A stretch of 64,000 nt of DNA. Source: Brenneria roseae subsp. roseae (GTDB lineage Bacteria; Pseudomonadota; Gammaproteobacteria; Enterobacterales; Enterobacteriaceae). Positions 5,188 to 33,508 of this stretch are shown here, piece after piece (within the stretch, counting starts at the first letter, position 1; each line of letters opens with the position of its first letter). The translations under genes were made by a program, and so were the position numbers. Where the stretch lies: assembly GCF_003115845.1 (NCBI RefSeq), contig NZ_KZ819022.1:310001-374000 (forward strand), given 5' to 3'. The notes beneath the pieces are model-generated. The model was not told where the DNA came from. It searched no databases and saw only the letters and a list, made by a program, of their open reading frames with translations.

Positions 5188-6384
5188 ATGTCTTTGTTTG
5201 TTTTTCATTTGCGTCACGATTCTGCCGAGCGATCGCTGCTGTCGTTGACCTGTGCCGTTTTTCTTTCCTATTTGACTGTCGGACTGGCTTTGCCGGTGAT
5301 CCCGCTGTACGTGCATCACGAATTGGGGCTGAACAACACCATGGTTGGGATTGCCGTCGGCGTTCAGTTTCTGGCGACGGTGCTGACCCGCGGTTATGCC
5401 GGGCGTTTAGCCGATCAGCAAGGCGCAAAGCGTTCAACGTTGCAGGGCATGGGCGCCTGTGCGTTGGCCGGCGTCGCTTATTTATTGGTAGCGCTGTTGC
5501 CGTTACCGGTAATGGGTAAATTTGCGCTGTTGGTTGCCGGCCGTTTGATTTTGGGTTTTGGTGAAAGCCAAATGTTGACGGGGAACATGACCTGGGGAAT
5601 GGGGCTGGTCGGGGCACAGCGTTCAGGAAAGGTCATGTCATGGACCGGTATGGCGATTTATGGTTCGCTGGCCGCCGGCGCGCCATTAGGCCTGTGGCTG
5701 TATCACGGCTGGGGATTTATGGCGTTGGGTCTCTCTGCGCTGGCATTACCCATCATTGCCCTGTTGATGAACGGGCGTATTCCGGCAATCGCGGCCCATG
5801 GCGGCATTCGCCCTTCGTTCTGGAAAGTGGTCGGCCTGATATGGCAACCCGGTGTTGCACTGGCGATGCAGGGCGTAGGATTTGCCGTGATCGGTACGTT
5901 TGTGTCTCTCTATTTTAGCGTGCAGCAGTGGGGCAATGCCGGATTTGCGCTCACGGCGTTTGGTTTGTCGTTTGTCCTGATGCGTTTGGCTTTTGGTCAT
6001 CTGCCTGACAAGATCGGCGGCAGTAAAGTCGCCATGATTTCTTTGATGATCGAGATCGTTGGATTGGTCGTGTTGTGGTTGGCGCCTTCCGCCGGGCTGG
6101 CGCTGTTGGGGGCCGCGCTGACGGGATTGGGTTGTTCGCTGATTTTCCCCGCGTTAGGCGTGGAGGTTGTGAAACGCGTACCCGTATCGGTACGCGGTAC
6201 GGCGCTGGGCGGATATGCCGCCTTTCAGGACATTTCGTATGCGTTTAGCGGTCCGTTGGTCGGTATTCTGGCTACCGCTCAGGGCTATTCTTCCGTGTTT
6301 ATGGCCGGCGCCGTTTGTGCGGCACTGGGTATCGCCGTAACGCTGAATTTCGCGGTGAACCAGCGATCAGAGCAAAATCCATAA
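5188..6384 (+). CDS. yfcJ: YfcJ-like major facilitator superfamily transporter
   Basis: A 398-residue inner-membrane protein with about 12 hydrophobic segments, matching E. coli YfcJ closely ([18 protein letters not shown] and [20 protein letters not shown] regions). The loop [14 protein letters not shown] between segments 2 and 3 is the typical MFS motif A. YfcJ belongs to a branch of sugar/drug efflux proteins whose substrate is not established. A GGAGTAAGAG sequence ahead of ATG 5188 supports the start. Its 3' end overlaps the 3' end of the opposite-strand gene flk by 18 bp. Confidence 0.9.
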
Positions 6385-7635
6385 CAGAAAGACGGCGACA
6401 CAGGCGCTGACAATCACCAAAAATAGAGGCTTCTGGAATAAGGATTGCCAGTTAAGCGGCAATGAAGCAATCAATGGATTGAGCAGCGGTTGCGGATACA
6501 GCGGCGATGTCGCCCAGTCGCTTTCCTGCGATCGCTGTATGCGTTGTGTAAACAGGAACGTTAAAACGTCGTTCATTTGCATCGGCGTGAGCGGCGTTTG
6601 TAATCCAACGTTAAAACGATTCTGCGTGTAATCCAGCAGCATTTGCTGTTCCTGAGCAGAAAGCGGCTGCTGTAACGCACTTTGCAGTACGGCGAGGCTG
6701 GAGGTGGCAAACGCTGTCGCCGTCTGTGAGCCGGATTGTGATGTCAATAGGGGCGCGTTGGCCGTTGTTTGCGTATTGCCGGAGGCGGGTTGTCCCCGGA
6801 TGGCACTGTTCGCCGTGTCGGTCTGTGCAGGTTGCTGCTGCTGTTGCTGTGATGACGCCTGTAATAATGATGACGTTGGCAGCGACTTCGTTGCCTGCTG
6901 CAACATGATTTGCGTTTGCAGAAACTGGGTCAGCAATGACAGATGTTTGAGGGGGATAGATTCGCCCGCTTTTAAATTCTGCATGGTCATCAGCGCAGTC
7001 CAGATTTTGGCGGGCTGTTCTTCGGTCTGGGATGCCAGACGGTTTACCAGTTGATTCAAACTGTTCTGCTCGGCAGGAAGCAGCGGACGGTCAGGCGCAT
7101 TAATCGCAGCCTGAGAAGCGTTTGCCGCGCTAGTCGCTTGGGGGGGCGCCCCATTTTGCAGTAGCGTCACCACCTGTTGTAACTGCGCCTTGCTGAGCGA
7201 ACTGAGTACCGTATGACCGAACTGCTGACGGATAAAATCACTGACGACCTGGCGGTTATTCCCCTGCGGCAGCATGTCGGTCAGACGTTGCAGCAGTTGC
7301 TGGCGTCCGCTGTTATTATCCTGTACCTGTGTTAATCGTGTTTGTAGCAACTGCTCTGCGGGCTGATAGTGACGAGACTGTAGTTCAGCGTTTTCCGCCA
7401 GTCCGAGCCCTTGCTTGACGTTACTCCAGATTTCGGTGGCTTTTGATGTCGTCAGCGCCGCCACTTTGAGCACCAGATTCTCAAGCGTGGTGCGCTGTGC
7501 CGGCGTGAGCGGTTGATCGCCGCTGCTGACGCCGGATCGGCCGGTTGTTGATGAGGACGTCGTCGTGTTGACCGCTTGTTCGCCCGGCAGCGGGGCCCCG
7601 GGGCCACTTACTGGTTGCATACTGGCTATCCTCAC
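6367..7635 (-). CDS. flk: Flagella biosynthesis regulator Flk (RflH)
   Basis: Flk couples flagellar ring assembly to the substrate switch of the export apparatus and is anchored in the inner membrane by a single C-terminal segment. That segment is visible here ([19 protein letters not shown], last 19 residues) after a soluble region. The protein is 422 residues, longer than E. coli Flk (331). The difference is largely a low-complexity Gln/Ala/Thr/Ser-rich stretch (about 265-315, including seven glutamines in a row). Position between yfcJ and pdxB agrees with E. coli. It may be cotranscribed with the DMT gene 76 bp upstream. Identification rests mainly on the position and on the ends of the protein. 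Confidence 0.85.
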
Positions 7636-25051: not shown

Positions 25052-26437
25052 ATGGAAAACAACAAAGCAGAACCGGGGTTAAAACGGACATTGGGCAGCT
25101 TCCACTTGTGGGGCATTGCCGTGGGTCTGGTGATTTCCGGTGAATATTTTGGCTGGAGTTACGGTTGGGCGCAGGCTGGCACATTAGGCTTCCTGATTAC
25201 GGCGCTGGCGATTGCCGCGATGTATTGTGCGTTTATTTTCAGCTTCACCGAACTGAGCACCTCGATTCCACACGCAGGCGGACCGTTTGCCTACGCCTAT
25301 CGCGCGTTTGGCCCGACCGGAGGGTTTATCGCCGGGTTTGCCACGCTGATTGAATTTGTGTTTGCACCCCCCGCCATTTCAATGGCTATCGGCGCCTATC
25401 TGAATGTGCAGTTCCCGTCGCTGGATCCGAAATGGGTGGCGGTCAGTGCTTATCTGATATTCATGGGACTCAACATTCTTGGTGTAGGCATTGCCGCGAC
25501 GTTTGAACTGTTGGTCACGCTGTTGGCCATATTCGAGTTGCTGGTGTTCATGGGCGTGGTTGCCCCGGGCTTTGAATGGGGCAACTTCATCAGCGGCGGC
25601 TGGGCCGGTTCTGACGTATTCAGCTCGGTGGCGATATCCGGCATTTTTGCCGCCATTCCCTTTGCTATCTGGTTCTTTCTGGCGATAGAAGGGGCCGCGA
25701 TGGCGGCTGAAGAAGCCAAGGATCCCCGCCGTACCATCCCTCGCGCCTTCATCTGCGGTATTCTGACCTTAACGATGTTGGCCATTGGCGTGATGCTGTT
25801 TGCAGGGGGCGTGGGTGACTGGCGTCAACTGTCTAACATCAACGACCCGTTGCCTCAGGCGATGAAGCTGATCGTCGGCAGTAACAGCGGCTGGCTGCAT
25901 ATGCTGGTATGGCTTGGACTATTTGGTCTGGTGGCGTCTTTCCACGGCATTATTATGGGATATTCCCGCCAGATTTTTGCGCTGGCCCGTGCCGGCTATC
26001 TGCCTAAACCACTGGCCCGTGTGCATACCCGTTTCCGCACTCCGCACCGCGCTATTCTGGCCGGGGGCGTTGTCGGTATCGCCGCAATCTTCTCTGATTC
26101 GCTGGTGACTATCGGCGGTCAGCCGTTAACCGCCAACATTGTGACAATGTCGGTATTCGGTGCCATTGTTATGTATATCACGTCAATGGCGTCGCTTTTC
26201 AAATTGCGTCGTAGCGAACCGGAACTGGCGCGTCCGTTCCGTGCGCCGTGGTATCCGTTTGCGCCGGCGTTTGCGCTGGTGATGGCGGTGATTTGTCTGG
26301 CTGCGATGGTGTATTACAACACGCTGCTGGCCATGATTTTTGCGGTCATGATGCTGCTGGGCTATGGCTGGTTTCGTCTGACCAGCACGTCGCGCGATGC
26401 CGCGGTGTTTGACCCGCAGTTGACGGTTTCCAAGTAG
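25052..26437 (+). CDS. eat: Ethanolamine permease, APC superfamily
   Basis: A 461-residue transporter with about 12 membrane segments and the N-terminal LKRTLGSFHLWGIAVGLVISGEYFGWSYGW signature of the ethanolamine permease family within the amino acid/polyamine/organocation superfamily. The central WFFLAIEGAAMAAEEAKDPRRTIPRA block is also typical. Ethanolamine as the substrate is inferred from the family and from the adjacent ethanolamine ammonia-lyase genes, which start 79 bp downstream. The whole cassette is absent from this position in E. coli. Confidence 0.9.
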   Translation: MENNKAEPGLKRTLGSFHLWGIAVGLVISGEYFGWSYGWAQAGTLGFLITALAIAAMYCAFIFSFTELSTSIPHAGGPFAYAYRAFGPTGGFIAGFATLIEFVFAPPAISMAIGAYLNVQFPSLDPKWVAVSAYLIFMGLNILGVGIAATFELLVTLLAIFELLVFMGVVAPGFEWGNFISGGWAGSDVFSSVAISGIFAAIPFAIWFFLAIEGAAMAAEEAKDPRRTIPRAFICGILTLTMLAIGVMLFAGGVGDWRQLSNINDPLPQAMKLIVGSNSGWLHMLVWLGLFGLVASFHGIIMGYSRQIFALARAGYLPKPLARVHTRFRTPHRAILAGGVVGIAAIFSDSLVTIGGQPLTANIVTMSVFGAIVMYITSMASLFKLRRSEPELARPFRAPWYPFAPAFALVMAVICLAAMVYYNTLLAMIFAVMMLLGYGWFRLTSTSRDAAVFDPQLTVSK

Positions 26438-26516
26438 CGAACGTTTTCATATCATCAAAAATGACGGCCCGCTATCTGCATGCGGGCTGTTACCACATAA
26501 TGATCGAGGCGAATGG

Positions 26517-27908
26517 ATGTATCAGACAACGCTGAGTCACCGCAGCTATCGTTTTCACGATTTGCGTGAGCTGATGGCGAAAGCGTCACCCGCCCGTTCC
26601 GGTGATTTTCTGGCGGGCGTGGCGGCGCAAAGCGCAGAAGAACGAATGGCGGCCCGCATGGCGCTGGCGGATTTGCCGCTGAAGGCCTTTTTGCAGCAGG
26701 CGCTGATTCCTTATGAACAGGATGAAGTCACGCGGCTGATTGTCGATTCGCACGATGATGCGGCGTTTGCGCCTATTTCTCACCTGACCGTCGGGGATTT
26801 CCGCGACTGGCTGTTAAGCGAACGAACGGACAGCGCACTACTGGCCCGGATCGCTAAAGGGATTACGCCGGAAATGGCGGCCGCAGTCAGTAAGCTTATG
26901 CGTAATCAGGATCTGATTCTGGCGGCGAAGAAATGCCGGGTTATTACGAAGTTTCGTAATACGCTTGGATTAGCGGGCCATATCAGCGTGCGCTTGCAGC
27001 CCAATCATCCGACGGACGATTTGAAAGGCATCGCGGCCAGTATGCTCGACGGGCTGCTGTATGGAAGCGGTGATGCCATGGTGGGGATCAATCCGGCCAG
27101 CGACAGTTTGCCGCTGCTGGAAAAACTGAATTACATGCTGGACGATGTGATCAGCCGTTTTGACATTCCGACGCAGTCCTGTGTGTTGACACACGTCACC
27201 AATACGCTGCAACTGATGGAGCGCGGCGCGCCGGTTGATCTGGTTTTTCAATCCATTGCCGGTACTGAAGCAACCAATAGCAGTTTTGGCTTTAATCTGG
27301 CGACGTTGGAAGAGGCGCATCAGGCGGCGTTAAGCCTGAAACGCGGTACGCTGGGCAACAACGTGATGTATTTTGAAACCGGGCAGGGGAGCTGTTTGTC
27401 AGCCAACGCGAATCACGGCGTCGATCAGCAAACCTGTGAAGCGCGCGCCTATGCGGTTGCCCGGCGTTTCTCTCCGTTTCTGGTGAATACGGTCGTGGGC
27501 TTTATCGGCCCGGAATACCTGTATGACGGTAAACAAATTATCCGGGCCGGTCTGGAAGATCATTTTTGCGGCAAGCTGATGGGCGTCCCGCTGGGATGCG
27601 ATGTGTGTTATACCAACCACGCCGAGGCCGATCAGGATGACATGGATACCTTGTTGACGTTGCTCGCCAATGCCGGGCTGACCTTTCTGATGGGGGTTCC
27701 GGGCGCGGATGACATCATGCTGAACTACCAGAGCACTTCTTTTCACGATGCGCTTTATGTCCGTGAGCTGTTGGGACTTAAACATGCCCCAGAATTTGGT
27801 GAGTGGCTGGAGAAAATGCGCATCATTGATGCGCAGGGGCGTTTGTGTGATACCAGCAGTCAGCATCCGCTGTTGCAGCATCAGCCCTATCTGGAGGGAA
27901 GCCTATGA
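26517..27908 (+). CDS. eutB: Ethanolamine ammonia-lyase large subunit EutB
   Basis: EutB is the catalytic, adenosylcobalamin-dependent subunit that converts ethanolamine to acetaldehyde and ammonia. The 463 residues (E. coli 453) cover the whole barrel, with LRPNHPTDD-type (here LQPNHPTDDLKGIAASMLDGLLYGSGDA) and GQGSCLSANANHGVDQQTCEARAYAVARRF blocks and MGVPLGCDVCYTNHAEADQDD near the C-terminus. GAGG lies seven bases ahead of the ATG. Its last four bases overlap eutC (ATGA), so the two subunits are coupled. Confidence 0.97.
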   Translation: MYQTTLSHRSYRFHDLRELMAKASPARSGDFLAGVAAQSAEERMAARMALADLPLKAFLQQALIPYEQDEVTRLIVDSHDDAAFAPISHLTVGDFRDWLLSERTDSALLARIAKGITPEMAAAVSKLMRNQDLILAAKKCRVITKFRNTLGLAGHISVRLQPNHPTDDLKGIAASMLDGLLYGSGDAMVGINPASDSLPLLEKLNYMLDDVISRFDIPTQSCVLTHVTNTLQLMERGAPVDLVFQSIAGTEATNSSFGFNLATLEEAHQAALSLKRGTLGNNVMYFETGQGSCLSANANHGVDQQTCEARAYAVARRFSPFLVNTVVGFIGPEYLYDGKQIIRAGLEDHFCGKLMGVPLGCDVCYTNHAEADQDDMDTLLTLLANAGLTFLMGVPGADDIMLNYQSTSFHDALYVRELLGLKHAPEFGEWLEKMRIIDAQGRLCDTSSQHPLLQHQPYLEGSL

Positions 27909-28699
27909 GTCGGGTGATCCACGACAACCCCTGGGAGACGTTACGTGAGTTTACGGGGGCGCGCATTGCGCTGGGGCGTACCGGCGCGAGCCTGCCGACC
28001 CGTGAACTGTTGAAATTCGGCATGGCTCATGCGCAGGCGAGGGATGCCGTTCATCAGGTTTTTGATAGCGAAGCGCTGGCGAATGCATTGGAAAATGCCG
28101 GATTGAAAACGCTGACGGTTCACAGTGCGGCGCAAACGCGGGAACAGTATCTGTGCCGGCCCGACTTAGGCCGCCGGTTGTCTGAATCGAGTCGAACGCT
28201 GCTGATGAACTCATCAGTCCGGCAGGCCGATTTGCTGCTGGTGATTGGCGATGGATTGTCTTCCAAAGCGGTGCATCGGCAGGCAGTACCATTAGTTTTA
28301 GCGTTACAGCCGTATCTCGAACTGCTGGGCTTGTCTTTGGCACCTATCGTATTAGCTCATCAGTCCCGCGTCGCACTGGGTGATGATATCGGTGAATGCA
28401 TTCAGGCCAAAGCGGTTGCGATCCTGATTGGCGAGCGCCCCGGCTTATCGTCGCCGGACAGTCTGAGCGTCTACATGACCTGGGGACCGCATACCCGGCG
28501 GCTTGAATCAGAGCGTAACTGTATCTCGAATATTCGCCCTGAGGGGCTGGATTATCCTCTGGCGGCATTCAAGCTGGCCTGGCTGCTGGAACAATCTTTC
28601 CAGCGTCGTTTGTCGGGCGTTCAACTCAAAGATGAAAGTGATAATCCGGCGTTGCACGGACGGATTACGCCACCCCCATCCTTGCTGATGTCGCGTTAA
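27905..28699 (+). CDS. eutC: Ethanolamine ammonia-lyase small subunit EutC, short N-terminus
   Basis: The cobalamin-binding partner of EutB, 264 residues against 295 in E. coli. Core motifs are present: FTGARIALGRTGASLPTRELLKF, RPDLGRRL, LLLVIGDGLSSKAV, ILIGERPGLSSPDSLSVYMTWGP and RNCISNIRPEGL. Missing is the roughly 40-residue N-terminal extension of the enteric enzyme, whose first part targets EutC to the microcompartment. No reactivase (eutA), shell gene or regulator (eutR) is next to it, so ethanolamine probably serves as a nitrogen source in the cytosol, with cobalamin from elsewhere. Confidence 0.95.
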   Translation: MSRVIHDNPWETLREFTGARIALGRTGASLPTRELLKFGMAHAQARDAVHQVFDSEALANALENAGLKTLTVHSAAQTREQYLCRPDLGRRLSESSRTLLMNSSVRQADLLLVIGDGLSSKAVHRQAVPLVLALQPYLELLGLSLAPIVLAHQSRVALGDDIGECIQAKAVAILIGERPGLSSPDSLSVYMTWGPHTRRLESERNCISNIRPEGLDYPLAAFKLAWLLEQSFQRRLSGVQLKDESDNPALHGRITPPPSLLMSR

Positions 28700-30222: not shown

Positions 30223-31479
30223 TTAACGGACAATAATACCCAGCAGAATGCCCAGCGCACCGAAGTCCGCATCACTGAATGTGGTGTTGGCAAAACCGAT
30301 TTCGCCCAGCACCGGCAGCAGGAACACCGGCAGAAAGGTGATTAGCAGACCCTGAGCAAAAGCGCCCAGAATCGCCCCGCGCCGACCACCGGTCGCATTA
30401 CCAAATACGCCTGCGGCGGCGCCGACGAAAAAGTGCGGAACGACACCGGGAATAATCACCGTCATATTGAGCAGATACAGCGCGAACATACCGAGAATAC
30501 CCGCGGCAAAGCTGCTGAGAAAACCGACCAATACCGCGTTTGGCGCATAGGGAAACACGATCGGGCAATCAAGCGCCGGTTTGGCATTGGGCACCAGTTT
30601 GTCAGAGATGCCTTTAAAAGCCGGGACGATTTCGGCAATTACCATTCGTACACCCTGTAAAATGATGTAGACGCCCGCAGCAAAGGTAATCGACTGGATA
30701 ATCGAGAACATCAGCCAGTTCTTGCCGCCACTAATGCTCTTGACGAATTCCGGTCCGGCGAACAGACAGGTAATAATGAAGATAATGCTCATGGTGAACG
30801 CGATCGCGACCGGCGTATCCCGCAGAAACAGCAGGCTTTTCGGTACGTTCATATCTTCAGTTGAATGCGCTTTGTTGCCAAACCGGCTGCCGATGAAGCC
30901 AGCCAGTACGTACGATAATGTTGAAAAATGGCCGATCGCCACTTCGTCGGAACCGGTGACTTTTTTCATGTACGGGTGAGCAATCGCCGGGAAAAAAACC
31001 ATCGCCGTGCCAGTGACCAGTGAACCAATGGCAATCAGCGCCACGCCGGAGATGCCTGCGGTAGCCAGAATAACCGCCACCATCATCGACATGAATAGCG
31101 TGTGATGTCCGGTAAGGAAGATGAACTTCCAGGGAGTGAAACGGGCGATCAGAATGTTAATTACCATGGCGAAGAACATGATCATCGCCATCTCTCTACC
31201 AAAACTTTTCTGCGCTACCGAAACAATCGCCTCATTGTTTGGCACGACGCCCTGAATACCAAACGCGTGCTGAAAGATGTTGGCAAAATCGCCCAACGAG
31301 GCGACAACCAGACCTGCGCCCGCGCCGAGTATGATAAAACCCATGATGGTTTTGACCGTGCCTTTAATGCATTCGGTAACGGGTTTTTTCTGGGCGACAA
31401 GACCAATCAATGCAATCAGACCGACCAGAATCGACGGTTCGGACAGCACGTCACTCATCAAAAAATGAAAGAAATCCAT
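30223..31479 (-). CDS. PTS ascorbate-type (UlaA/SgaT) membrane component IIC
   Basis: The transporter channel of an ascorbate-superfamily phosphotransferase system. The 418-residue protein has about 11 hydrophobic segments and reads like UlaA: VSVAQKSFGREMAMIMFFAMVINILIARFTPWKFIFLTGHHTLFMS near the front, GPEFVKSISGGKNWLMFSIIQSITFAAGVYIILQGVRM in the centre. Family members import ascorbate or related acidic or five/six-carbon sugars; the substrate here is unknown because no metabolic enzyme accompanies it. It is the last gene of a IIA-IIB-IIC operon. Confidence 0.88.
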   Translation of the reverse strand: MDFFHFLMSDVLSEPSILVGLIALIGLVAQKKPVTECIKGTVKTIMGFIILGAGAGLVVASLGDFANIFQHAFGIQGVVPNNEAIVSVAQKSFGREMAMIMFFAMVINILIARFTPWKFIFLTGHHTLFMSMMVAVILATAGISGVALIAIGSLVTGTAMVFFPAIAHPYMKKVTGSDEVAIGHFSTLSYVLAGFIGSRFGNKAHSTEDMNVPKSLLFLRDTPVAIAFTMSIIFIITCLFAGPEFVKSISGGKNWLMFSIIQSITFAAGVYIILQGVRMVIAEIVPAFKGISDKLVPNAKPALDCPIVFPYAPNAVLVGFLSSFAAGILGMFALYLLNMTVIIPGVVPHFFVGAAAGVFGNATGGRRGAILGAFAQGLLITFLPVFLLPVLGEIGFANTTFSDADFGALGILLGIIVR

Positions 31480-31491
31480 ACTGACCTCCGG

Positions 31492-31779
31492 TTACAGGGC
31501 GCCTAGTTCGGTAAGCGCAATGGACAAACGTTCTTTCATGGCGTTTTTGTCGATCATGTTATCGAGCGAAACGATTTTTCCGTTGACGGACTGCGCAATT
31601 AGCTGTTCCGCTATGTCTTTGGTGCCGACAAAAATATCGCTTTGCGTGCCTTTGGCCGAACCCAGATCCACGTGATCAACCTCGGCACTGACGCCCAGAT
31701 CCCGGATGATGGTTTTAATGCTCATTTCCATCATCAGGCTGGTACCTAAACCGTTACCGCATACGACTGTGATTTTCAT
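31492..31779 (-). CDS. PTS ascorbate-type component IIB
   Basis: A 95-residue cytoplasmic phosphocarrier. The phosphorylated cysteine is Cys7 in the loop VVCGNGLGTSLMME, the standard PTS IIB (lactose/ascorbate class) arrangement. It receives phosphate from IIA and passes it to the sugar bound in IIC. It sits 12 bp ahead of the IIC gene and 22 bp behind the IIA gene on the minus strand. Confidence 0.9.
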   Translation of the reverse strand: MKITVVCGNGLGTSLMMEMSIKTIIRDLGVSAEVDHVDLGSAKGTQSDIFVGTKDIAEQLIAQSVNGKIVSLDNMIDKNAMKERLSIALTELGAL

Positions 31780-31801
31780 TTATTTACTCCGGGGCAGGTA
31801 A

Positions 31802-32245
31802 TTAATAGCGCTCAATAATCGCAATAACATCTTGCGGGGTGTTGGCTTGCATGATGGCGGCAATATCATCGCTGTTGTCAAATAATGCCGCCAGCTGTGA
31901 AATGGTGTCGATATGGCTGTTACTGTCGGAAGCGGCCAACACCACCAGCAGCTTAACGGGATCGTTTTCGCCAGCCGAAAAATTAACGCCGTTGCGGATT
32001 ACCGTCAGACTCAATGCCAGACGATTCACGCCTTCTTCCGGACGCGCGTGCGGCATGGCGATGCCGGGACCAATGACGTAATACGGGCCTATCGCCTGGT
32101 GTGAGCGATAGATGGCGTCCAGATAACGGGGTTCGATAGCGTGATTGTCGATGAGCGGCCGACAGGAAACGGCCACGGCGTTCCGCCAGTCATCGACGCT
32201 GTCAATCAGTTGGATCACATCCGGCGTTAACAGATCTTTTAACAT
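31802..32245 (-). CDS. PTS ascorbate-type (mannitol/fructose-class) component IIA
   Basis: A 147-residue phosphocarrier of the PTS EIIA type-2 family, close in pattern to UlaC. His66 in GPGIAMPHARPEEGV is the expected phosphorylation site. It is the first gene of the IIA-IIB-IIC operon and starts opposite the LacI-type regulator. Between them lie CRP-like and palindromic operator sequences. Unlike the E. coli ula operon there are no ulaDEF-like enzymes next to it. Confidence 0.9.
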   Translation of the reverse strand: MLKDLLTPDVIQLIDSVDDWRNAVAVSCRPLIDNHAIEPRYLDAIYRSHQAIGPYYVIGPGIAMPHARPEEGVNRLALSLTVIRNGVNFSAGENDPVKLLVVLAASDSNSHIDTISQLAALFDNSDDIAAIMQANTPQDVIAIIERY

Positions 32246-32304
32246 TTATTTTGCTCTCTCTTTACGTCATGCCGCAGAGCGTAGCCGCTTTATACCGCGA
32301 TTGA

Positions 32305-32320
32305 TGAGATGTTTATCACA
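32305..32320 (-). promoter_or_regulatory. CRP-like site upstream of the PTS operon
   Basis: TGAGATGTTTATCACA fits the CRP core TGTGA-N6-TCACA with one mismatch and is extended by ATTT as in strong sites. Its centre is about 67 bp from the IIA start codon. Catabolite control of a sugar PTS is expected; binding here is inferred. Confidence 0.5.
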
Positions 32321-32351
32321 TTTGGTAGCGCTAACCGATAGCGCTACCAAA
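32321..32351. promoter_or_regulatory. Paired TAGCGCTA operators in a 13-bp inverted repeat
   Basis: TTTGGTAGCGCTA (32321-32333), spacer ACCGA, TAGCGCTACCAAA (32339-32351). Each arm contains the self-palindrome TAGCGCTA, with centres 13 bp apart. LacI/GntR-family operators are palindromes with a central CG or GC step, so this is the likely binding site of the adjacent regulator. A further LacI-like sequence, TGATAACGATATCA, lies at 32357-32370. Confidence 0.65.
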
Positions 32352-32461
32352 TTATGTGATAACGATATCATTAACAATGCGATGATCTTTGATGATGTAT
32401 CTCTGCGGCGGTTATAATAGCTATATATGTCATCTACCCGTTTAGGGTGTGGCGGGGCTCT

Positions 32462-33508
32462 ATGACGGAAGCAGGGAATACCAGAATGGAAAAATTGCGT
32501 AAACGCCGCACGACCGGACGGGTTACCCTTCAAGATGTGGCGAATTACGTCGGTGTTGGCATGATGACCGTTTCGCGTGCGCTGAGAACGCCAGAACAGG
32601 TATCGGATAAGCTGCGTGAAAAAATAGAGCAGGCGGTGGAATCGTTGGGGTACATTCCAAACCGCGCGGCGGGGGCGTTGGCTTCCGGGCACAGTAATAC
32701 CGTCGCTGTGCTGATCCCTTCTCTGACCAATCAGGCCGGTTCGCTGTTTATGCAATCATTGCAACTGGCGCTCAATCGCAATAATTACCAACTGCTGTTG
32801 GGTTGTCATGATTATAACCAGCAGAAAGAAGCCAGCATTCTCGGCACGTTACTACAGAATAACCCCGATGCGCTGGTCGTATTTAGATCGCAGCTTGCCG
32901 ACAGCACCTGGCAGTTCATTGAACGGGCTTCCGTACCAACCCTGAATATTGTCGGAGCCGGCAACCCGAATGCCAGACTGACCCTCAGCGTCGATTTTTC
33001 TGCCGCTGCGGAAGAGCTAACCCGGCATTTACTGGCGCGGGGGTATAAGAATATCGGCTACGTCTGTGCGCATATGGATAATCGCCTGCAAAAACAGCAG
33101 TTGAACGGCTGGCATAAAGCCATGCTGCAAGGCTATCAGAATGCCGATCTGGTCGTGGCGACGCCTGACGCATCCAGCATGCAGTTTGGCCGCCATGCCC
33201 TGATGGAACTGCTGCTCAGACAGCCGGAGCTGGATGCGCTGGTCTGCAGCCATGAAGATATTGCGCTCGGGCTGTTGTTCGAGTGTCAGCGCCGGTTGAT
33301 CAAGGTGCCCGGAAATCTGGCGATAGCCTGTCTGGACGGTAGCGAGAACAGCGATCAAACCTATCCGGTATTGACTTCAGTGAGGGTAGATTATGCAAAA
33401 ATGGGGCGTGAAACGGGCAAGCTACTGATATCCATGCTTAAGAAAGGAGTGGAAGAACCAATCAGTCTTCCTTTCAGCTATCGGTTTGAACCGGGAGGAA
33501 GCAGTTAA
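32462..33508 (+). CDS. LacI-family (GntR-like) transcriptional regulator
   Basis: A 348-residue repressor-type protein: a LacI helix-turn-helix (about 20-66, VTLQDVANYVGVGMMTVSRALRTPEQVS, then the hinge helix YIPNRAAGALASG) and a periplasmic-binding-like ligand domain (about 75-345) ending with RFEPGGSS. The overall pattern is nearest the gluconate regulator GntR. It is divergent from the ascorbate-type PTS operon and very probably controls it. ATG 32462 follows GGCGGGG; a GTG at 32447 and an ATG at 32486 are alternatives. The ligand is unknown. Confidence 0.88.
   Translation: MTEAGNTRMEKLRKRRTTGRVTLQDVANYVGVGMMTVSRALRTPEQVSDKLREKIEQAVESLGYIPNRAAGALASGHSNTVAVLIPSLTNQAGSLFMQSLQLALNRNNYQLLLGCHDYNQQKEASILGTLLQNNPDALVVFRSQLADSTWQFIERASVPTLNIVGAGNPNARLTLSVDFSAAAEELTRHLLARGYKNIGYVCAHMDNRLQKQQLNGWHKAMLQGYQNADLVVATPDASSMQFGRHALMELLLRQPELDALVCSHEDIALGLLFECQRRLIKVPGNLAIACLDGSENSDQTYPVLTSVRVDYAKMGRETGKLLISMLKKGVEEPISLPFSYRFEPGGSS

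Follow-up and report, generated by a model that had tools for sequence, protein, structure and literature searches.

Which sugar enters the cell through a phosphotransferase system (PTS) whose operon encodes no enzyme for that sugar? The question is raised by a 64,000-nucleotide stretch of the Brenneria roseae subsp. roseae genome (RefSeq assembly GCF_003115845.1, contig NZ_KZ819022.1, positions 310,001 to 374,000; hereafter the window), in which a cassette of four genes at positions 30223-33508 encodes the IIA, IIB and IIC components of a PTS of the L-ascorbate family and a divergent LacI-family regulator. A preliminary description of this DNA regarded the system as uncharacterised and offered a plant-derived acid sugar as a guess. 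In the present analysis the cassette was identified, with very little doubt, as the orthologue of the Vpe PTS of Escherichia coli, hence as a known system and not an oddity of one place. Vpe-type cassettes would import and phosphorylate a neutral ketose, likeliest a ketopentose, to be used by the housekeeping enzymes of the pentose phosphate pathway; we assign this reading a probability of roughly 0.55.

The cassette and its identity with the E. coli Vpe PTS

The IIC gene (30223..31479, minus strand) encodes a VpeC-type membrane transporter (EIIC-GAT) of 418 residues, which matched Pfam PF03611 with 496 bits over the whole profile. The IIB component (31492..31779, minus strand; PF02302, PTS_IIB) carries the phosphorylatable cysteine as residue 7, and IIA (31802..32245, minus strand; PF00359, PTS_EIIA_2) carries the phosphorylatable His66 within a PHAR motif. 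The regulator (32447..33508, plus strand), divergent from IIA, contains the Pfam LacI and periplasmic-binding domains; its start is probably a downstream ATG, at 32462 or 32486, since the domain matches begin near residue 21-27. Pfam and NCBIfam profile matches support every one of the four parts, and no enzyme gene was found among the four open reading frames. The cassette is flanked by matches to YfcD and YfcE on one side, and on the other by two genes which we take to be pta and ackA. The operon with its His66, Cys7 and UlaA-like IIC, the GntR-like character of the regulator, the location between yfcD and ackA-pta and the lack of catabolic genes in the unit had all been stated in the preliminary description, and are upheld here. 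Judged by sequence, the predicted parts for phosphotransfer (His66, Cys7 and a full-length UlaA-family IIC) are thus present, together with a LacI and operator set that belongs to the cassette only.

In a tree of 50 IIC rows, the window IIC fell together with Vpe inside a cassette clade of 19 rows (support 99/82). The record of E. coli NCTC 86 contains a LacI-IIA-IIB-IIC unit that adjoins genes of the deoK operon on an island whose tRNA gene, annotated as tRNA-Leu, is presumably leuX. The IIC of this unit (WP_000345347.1) and the window IIC share 91.6% identity. This unit was equated with vpe by its fit to the description in PMC5382810, according to which the NCTC 86 PTS locus named vpe shares a region with deoK, and vpe mutants produce much reduced amounts of group 2 capsule. 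VpeC is classified as TC 4.A.7.1.2, near UlaA and apparently without the 11th helix (PMC6048161), which fits the 418-residue length of the IIC. The excerpt of another publication (PMC7545054) concerns the deoK island only. The system can no longer be called uncharacterised, and the idea that its IIC might fall inside a characterised substrate clade was borne out as to a named clade, Vpe, and not as to a defined substrate: a literature search of limited depth found none assigned to the Vpe clade, the pneumococcal ketopentose proposal discussed below excepted. The original vpe paper reportedly did not identify the substrate.

Among 5426 complete E. coli genomes, 931 have a region matching 80% or more of the cassette at 60-80% DNA identity. 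In the five E. coli chromosomes examined (L001, L092, L093/L196, L192 and L199), the unit lies beside aldose epimerase, fucP and ribokinase genes, i.e., the deoK operon; the DeoR-type regulator of that operon is present in four of them, the sequence of L192 ending before it. In L192 (E. coli AR_451, 5469-7309) the start of the Vpe IIC is lost and transposase remnants lie alongside. The same partial IIC match (query 385-1257) was present in 16 of 60 further records among the matches listed, which suggests decay of the Vpe system in a common E. coli lineage. One plasmid copy of the cassette is bounded by IS26 at both ends. A second PTS, with a MurR-like regulator, a glucose-type IIC and a NanE-like epimerase, was observed a few kb from vpe on the same island in L199 (1-3087).

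The substrate pocket and the enzyme-linked relatives

The 11 residues of UlaA in contact with ascorbate are listed in PMC6048161. Four of them (H135, H194, D314 and F362) are kept in all 100 cassette rows of the alignment (76 distinct sequences), and the other seven, T86, Y87, I136, Q139, Q195, I358 and M410, are replaced in all of these rows by N, E, H, F, F, V and D, respectively. The gained Glu (87) and Asp (410), beside the conserved Asp314, would suit an anion less well than a neutral polyhydroxy sugar. These acidic residues, and the presence of the cassette in Proteus, Photorhabdus, Vibrio and E. coli, leave unsupported the earlier guess of a plant-derived acid sugar.

The sister of the cassette clade in the IIC tree (support 100/99) is a Vibrio nigripulchritudo system organized as IIB-IIC-IIA-tal-tkt, with an IIC of 65% identity; its transketolase (1039 bits, cut-off 682) and transaldolase (512 bits, cut-off 396) exceed the curated cut-offs. 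Next in the tree are Priestia, with no enzyme, and an AlsE group (100/99) of the order LacI-IIA-IIB-IIC-AlsE/Rpe-like epimerase, in which an AlsE match was found in five of the eight loci, the other three being placed by the tree. The epimerase of this group scored 374.1 bits against the model for D-allulose-6-phosphate 3-epimerase (cut-off 271) and 212.1 bits against that for rpe (cut-off 212.6). Further out lie three Tkt groups, namely LacI-TktNC (both Tkt genes in 6/6; no LacI called in L168), GntR-Tkt (tkt-IIA-IIB-IIC; Tkt called in 4/8, the GntR label coming from the single annotated member L088) and Enterococcus BglG-TktN-TktC. In Salmonella and others, LacI-IIA-IIB-IIC-tktN-tktC occupies the same yfcD-pta place. 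The enzymes of these relatives act on ketose phosphates of, or close to, the pentose phosphate pathway.

The pocket was compared among groups that, the cassette apart, were small (n=1 to 8). It is identical to that of the cassette at 11 of 11 positions in V. nigripulchritudo and Priestia, at 10 of 11 in the LacI-TktNC group and at 8 of 11 in the Enterococcus and GntR-Tkt groups. These last two groups and the AlsE group differ from the cassette at two or three positions, the AlsE clade at 87 and 139, and partly at 86.

For a transketolase-linked pneumococcal PTS, ketopentoses have been proposed as substrates, without experimental proof (PMC3302838). The trait expected of a ketopentose PTS, a linked transketolase or transaldolase, is lacking in the cassette (0 of 80 loci within 9 kb, as detailed below) and present in the sister and cousin systems. 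The psicose locus of Klebsiella pneumoniae was considered and set aside, being a permease locus and not a cassette-type PTS (PMC6020474); PMC10101011 had no bearing on the question. Another enzyme-linked PTS of the same family was observed at L095 (G000:C10:32000-46000), with an IIC of 48% identity, a tagatose-bisphosphate-type aldolase, a kinase-like gene and a SorC-like regulator; a similar set lies on a Sodalis plasmid (L125).

Distribution as a stand-alone module

The cassette locus set comprises the best 80 of 432 loci from GTDB genomes. These 80 loci belong to Enterobacterales and Vibrionaceae, with an IIC identity of 84-96% and varying flanks; the closest are Brenneria homologues (95-96%). 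LacI is adjacent in 77 of them and missing in three Xenorhabdus loci; no IIA was called in one locus (L038), and in the identity comparison four of the 80 loci had no called IIB. In a family search of 149 sampled genomes, 15 had an IIC with 80% identity or more, the next match being at 64%.

Placement at pta/yfcD was found in 27 of the 80 loci (in 16, as in the window, pta and IIC share a strand; in eight they are on opposite strands; three were placed by yfcD alone), and the other 53 lie elsewhere, some of these being cut by contig ends. The cassette appears to have been placed at this spot more than once, or inverted, since its orientations in Brenneria/Yersinia and in Proteus are opposite. 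Across the group, identity is 44-90% for LacI and 54-87% for IIA, and IIC is conserved about as much as AckA/Pta. As LacI and IIA are much more diverged than IIC, recent transfer is not claimed outside E. coli.

Within 9 kb of the cassette, none of the 80 loci gave a match to transketolase, transaldolase, Rpe/AlsE epimerase, class I aldolase or ula enzymes in a check that used a limited set of reference proteins. A distant KdgA-like match lies 3-5 kb away in two loci. In the window itself, next to yfcE (25052-28699), an amino-acid permease-like gene is followed by reading frames that, judged by eye, resemble the large and small subunits of ethanolamine ammonia-lyase and do not belong to an eut operon.

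Regulator and operators

The best NCBIfam matches of the LacI regulator were to GntR (279.6 bits, cut-off 400), IdnR (212.8, cut-off 500) and a further model (191.6, cut-off 433). The regulator is GntR-like yet not GntR, because all GntR and IdnR scores fall below the curated cut-offs. Between the divergent genes, two overlapping operators (unstranded) were predicted, TGGTAGCGCTAACC at 32323..32336 and CGATAGCGCTACCA at 32336..32349, with their TAGCGCTA cores at 32326 and 32339, 13 bp apart. This spacing matches the overlapping 13-bp arrangement described for GntR at gntKU (PMC4052901). A third operator (unstranded), intact as TGATAGCGCTATCA in most orthologues, is degenerate here (TGATAACGATATCA, 32357..32370), so that the window retains the 13-bp pair with a degenerate outer site. 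The double TAGCGCTA site is unique in the genome when up to three mismatches are allowed.

At least two AGCGCT cores are present in all 76 usable intergenic regions besides that of the window (three Xenorhabdus loci without LacI and L038 were omitted from the 80), and their spacings are fixed, being 34 bp in 37/77 and 21+13 bp in 29/77. Conservation is not complete, as operator-like sites are missing or weaker in six loci outside the 80 (L186-L191, 80-85% identity). The full motif TGRTAGCGCTAYCA occurs in 1-3 copies per genome in 21 of 21 genomes, all inside the cassette locus (site coordinates were matched to the loci by eye), compared with 0 or 1 for the reversed control. A wider regulon was rejected accordingly: the search for this motif at other genes, which the preliminary description had called for, returned the exact motif only at the cassette. 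Of the one-mismatch sites in the window genome, one lies by another LacI gene divergent from galactarate/L-talarate dehydratase (C4), and is taken as belonging to a separate regulator with a similar motif; the other is near a galE-like gene (C8, named by eye), and neither is at a PTS gene. Sites with up to two mismatches numbered 64 per strand against 96 in the reversed control, i.e., chance level. Similar operator-like sites were observed at L099 (G000 C4:60264-60462), between the LacI-family gene and the dehydratase (683 bits, cut-off 500). No dedicated regulon supplies the enzymes, given the absence of enzyme matches within 9 kb in all 80 loci and of the operator elsewhere in all 21 genomes.

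A CRP-like site, TGTGATAAACATCTCA (32305..32320, minus strand), has one mismatch to the CRP consensus TGTGA-N6-TCACA. A best site with one mismatch was found in 40 of 77 intergenic regions versus 18 of 1540 shuffles, which is suggestive of a genuine site; in some loci it partly overlaps the operator ends.

The TGATAGCGCTATCA operator also stands upstream of the Tkt-type operons in all five examined (L086, L089, L166, L167 and L177), and the AlsE type has GTTAGCGCTAAC-like sites. A third UlaA-family PTS with a LacI regulator was observed at yfcD-pta in L175 (G136:C1:1464100-1479300), with the TGATAGCGCTATCA operator, an IIC of 48% identity and an aldolase-type pocket; no IIA was called beside it. 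The yfcD-pta interval is a hot spot where three distinct PTS from a single family occur, all of them LacI-controlled and sharing the operator.

Proposed function and alternative explanations

In the route established for the family, phosphate passes from phosphoenolpyruvate through EI, HPr, IIA and IIB to the sugar bound in IIC. In the cassette it would pass via His66 of IIA and Cys7 of IIB to a ketose held in IIC, which would enter the cell as its phosphate. The product, for instance xylulose 5-phosphate, would be an intermediate of the pentose phosphate pathway, so that housekeeping transketolase, transaldolase and epimerase would suffice and no dedicated enzyme would be needed. LacI would repress the divergent promoters from the two overlapping operators until the sugar, free or phosphorylated, releases it; the cassette may also be activated by CRP. 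We infer the substrate class, the product and the effector. The ketopentose reading is supported by the transaldolase, transketolase or epimerase genes beside the nearest relatives, by the shared pocket and by the common TGATAGCGCTATCA operator at the Tkt-type operons. Within the ketopentoses, the likeliest order of candidates is D-xylulose first and D-ribulose second, D-xylulose itself being a tentative choice.

Several points weigh against a ketopentose. The deep joins of the tree are weak (80/16, 92/81, 94/81 and 91/66), and the branch of the V. nigripulchritudo IIC is long. Pocket positions were taken by aligning the IIC with UlaA (MAFFT) at an identity of about 28%, with position 410 in a gapped stretch, and the pocket names no single sugar, because the AlsE, Enterococcus and GntR-Tkt groups have enzymes of the same pathway yet somewhat different pockets. 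In pneumococcal fermentation tests, no more than unspecific acidification was seen, whether the sugar was ribose, xylose, arabinose or xylulose (PMC3302838). In Salmonella, ulaA_2 and a transketolase gene rose about 3.5-fold in a delta-araE biofilm at 40 mM L-arabinose relative to wild type at 5 mM (PMC8341724), a weak rise in genes that are equated with the Tkt operon by name only. A hexulose would also suit the AlsE group.

This last point leads to an importer of a neutral hexulose or another ketose (allulose-like, fructose-like or sedoheptulose), whose phosphate would be used by glycolysis or transaldolase. The epimerase that passes the D-allulose-6-phosphate 3-epimerase cut-off in a related clade favours it; the sister system, with tal and tkt and no epimerase, does not, nor do the pocket differences from the AlsE clade at 87, 139 and partly 86, and we hold it to be unlikely. 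Import of a sugar acid resembling gluconate or a plant uronate would agree with GntR and IdnR as the closest characterised regulators and with the gntKU-like operator pair (PMC4052901), but the Glu and Asp gained beside Asp314 would make a poor site for an anion, the nearest relatives carry pentose-phosphate enzymes, and among the enzyme references used only the two distant KdgA-like matches appeared near the 80 loci; it is improbable. Equally improbable is a sugar sensor or surface-coat regulator, in which import of trace sugar would alter regulation and not feed the cell. The much lower group 2 capsule of vpe mutants (PMC5382810) and the lack of further operator sites in the 21 genomes would suit such a role, whereas the intact phosphotransfer residues, and conservation of the IIC at about the level of AckA/Pta, point to transport. 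Pleiotropic effects are known for other PTS too.

The annotation itself suggests a further L-ascorbate PTS that would supply the ula pathway. The window IIC passes the cut-off of NCBIfam NF006919 ('PTS ascorbate transporter subunit IIC') and belongs to the same family as UlaA, whose structure is known. That cut-off is also passed by true UlaA and by the Tkt, AlsE and aldolase types, in all by at least five operon types, so that the match is uninformative on substrate; the model is a source of wrong 'ascorbate' labels, and the label is arguably wrong for the whole cassette clade. Only four of the 11 ascorbate contacts are kept. Elsewhere the genome encodes UlaR, UlaG, UlaA, UlaB, UlaC, UlaD, UlaE and UlaF, each above its curated cut-off (UlaD, UlaE and UlaF by subfamily models), and no TAGCGCTA was found near this ula operon. 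The preliminary description had envisaged a complete ula operon elsewhere under the same regulator: the operon exists, but its regulator is UlaR and it lacks the cassette operator. A match to UlaG at E<=1e-60 was obtained in 16 of 40 cassette genomes and not in the other 24. Ascorbate was rejected as the substrate on the pocket, the separate operon under UlaR and the UlaG distribution, and a second ascorbate PTS is highly improbable.

The comparison yields a short list of candidate sugars for Vpe, a locus linked to the E. coli capsule phenotype. More tentatively, Vpe could be a D-xylulose (or D-ribulose) PTS that forms a pathway intermediate on entry, four genes alone adding a carbon source without an enzyme, and its substrate would explain the phenotype of the vpe mutant. 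The cassette would then be a minimal module, one that occurs in Enterobacterales and Vibrionaceae at numerous chromosomal sites, on islands and on a plasmid segment flanked by IS26.

Comparison with known systems

The UlaABC L-ascorbate PTS belongs to the same family, and its His135, His194, Asp314 and Phe362 are retained in the cassette IIC. It differs in IIC identity (about 28%) and in 7 of the 11 substrate contacts, and the cassette has no UlaG, UlaD, UlaE or UlaF at the locus and a LacI regulator in place of UlaR. The pneumococcal SP2129-30 PTS with the SP2127-28 transketolase, compared by description only, is likewise of the L-Asc family with ketopentoses proposed (PMC3302838), but has a PRD regulator with a fused IIA, and no LacI.

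Closer systems carry enzymes. The LacI-IIA-IIB-IIC-TktN-TktC operon of Salmonella and other Enterobacteriaceae (NF009549 type) shares the yfcD-pta hot spot, the regulator family, the operator and 10 of 11 pocket positions, whereas its IIC is 63% identical with about 45 more C-terminal residues, and two transketolase genes are present. The V. nigripulchritudo plasmid system, sister in the IIC tree with 11 of 11 pocket positions identical, differs in its 65% identity, the presence of tal and tkt, the lack of LacI and a different gene order.

The Vpe PTS has the same four genes, order, orientation and operator, no enzymes, and an IIC of 91.6% identity. In contrast to the cassette of the window, which lies between ackA-pta and yfcD and has a degenerate third operator, E. 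coli vpe is located on genomic islands next to deoK, and across the group the regulator and IIA are much more diverged than IIC. The unit was thus already known as Vpe in E. coli, and what the comparison adds is a testable substrate proposal for a widespread clade.

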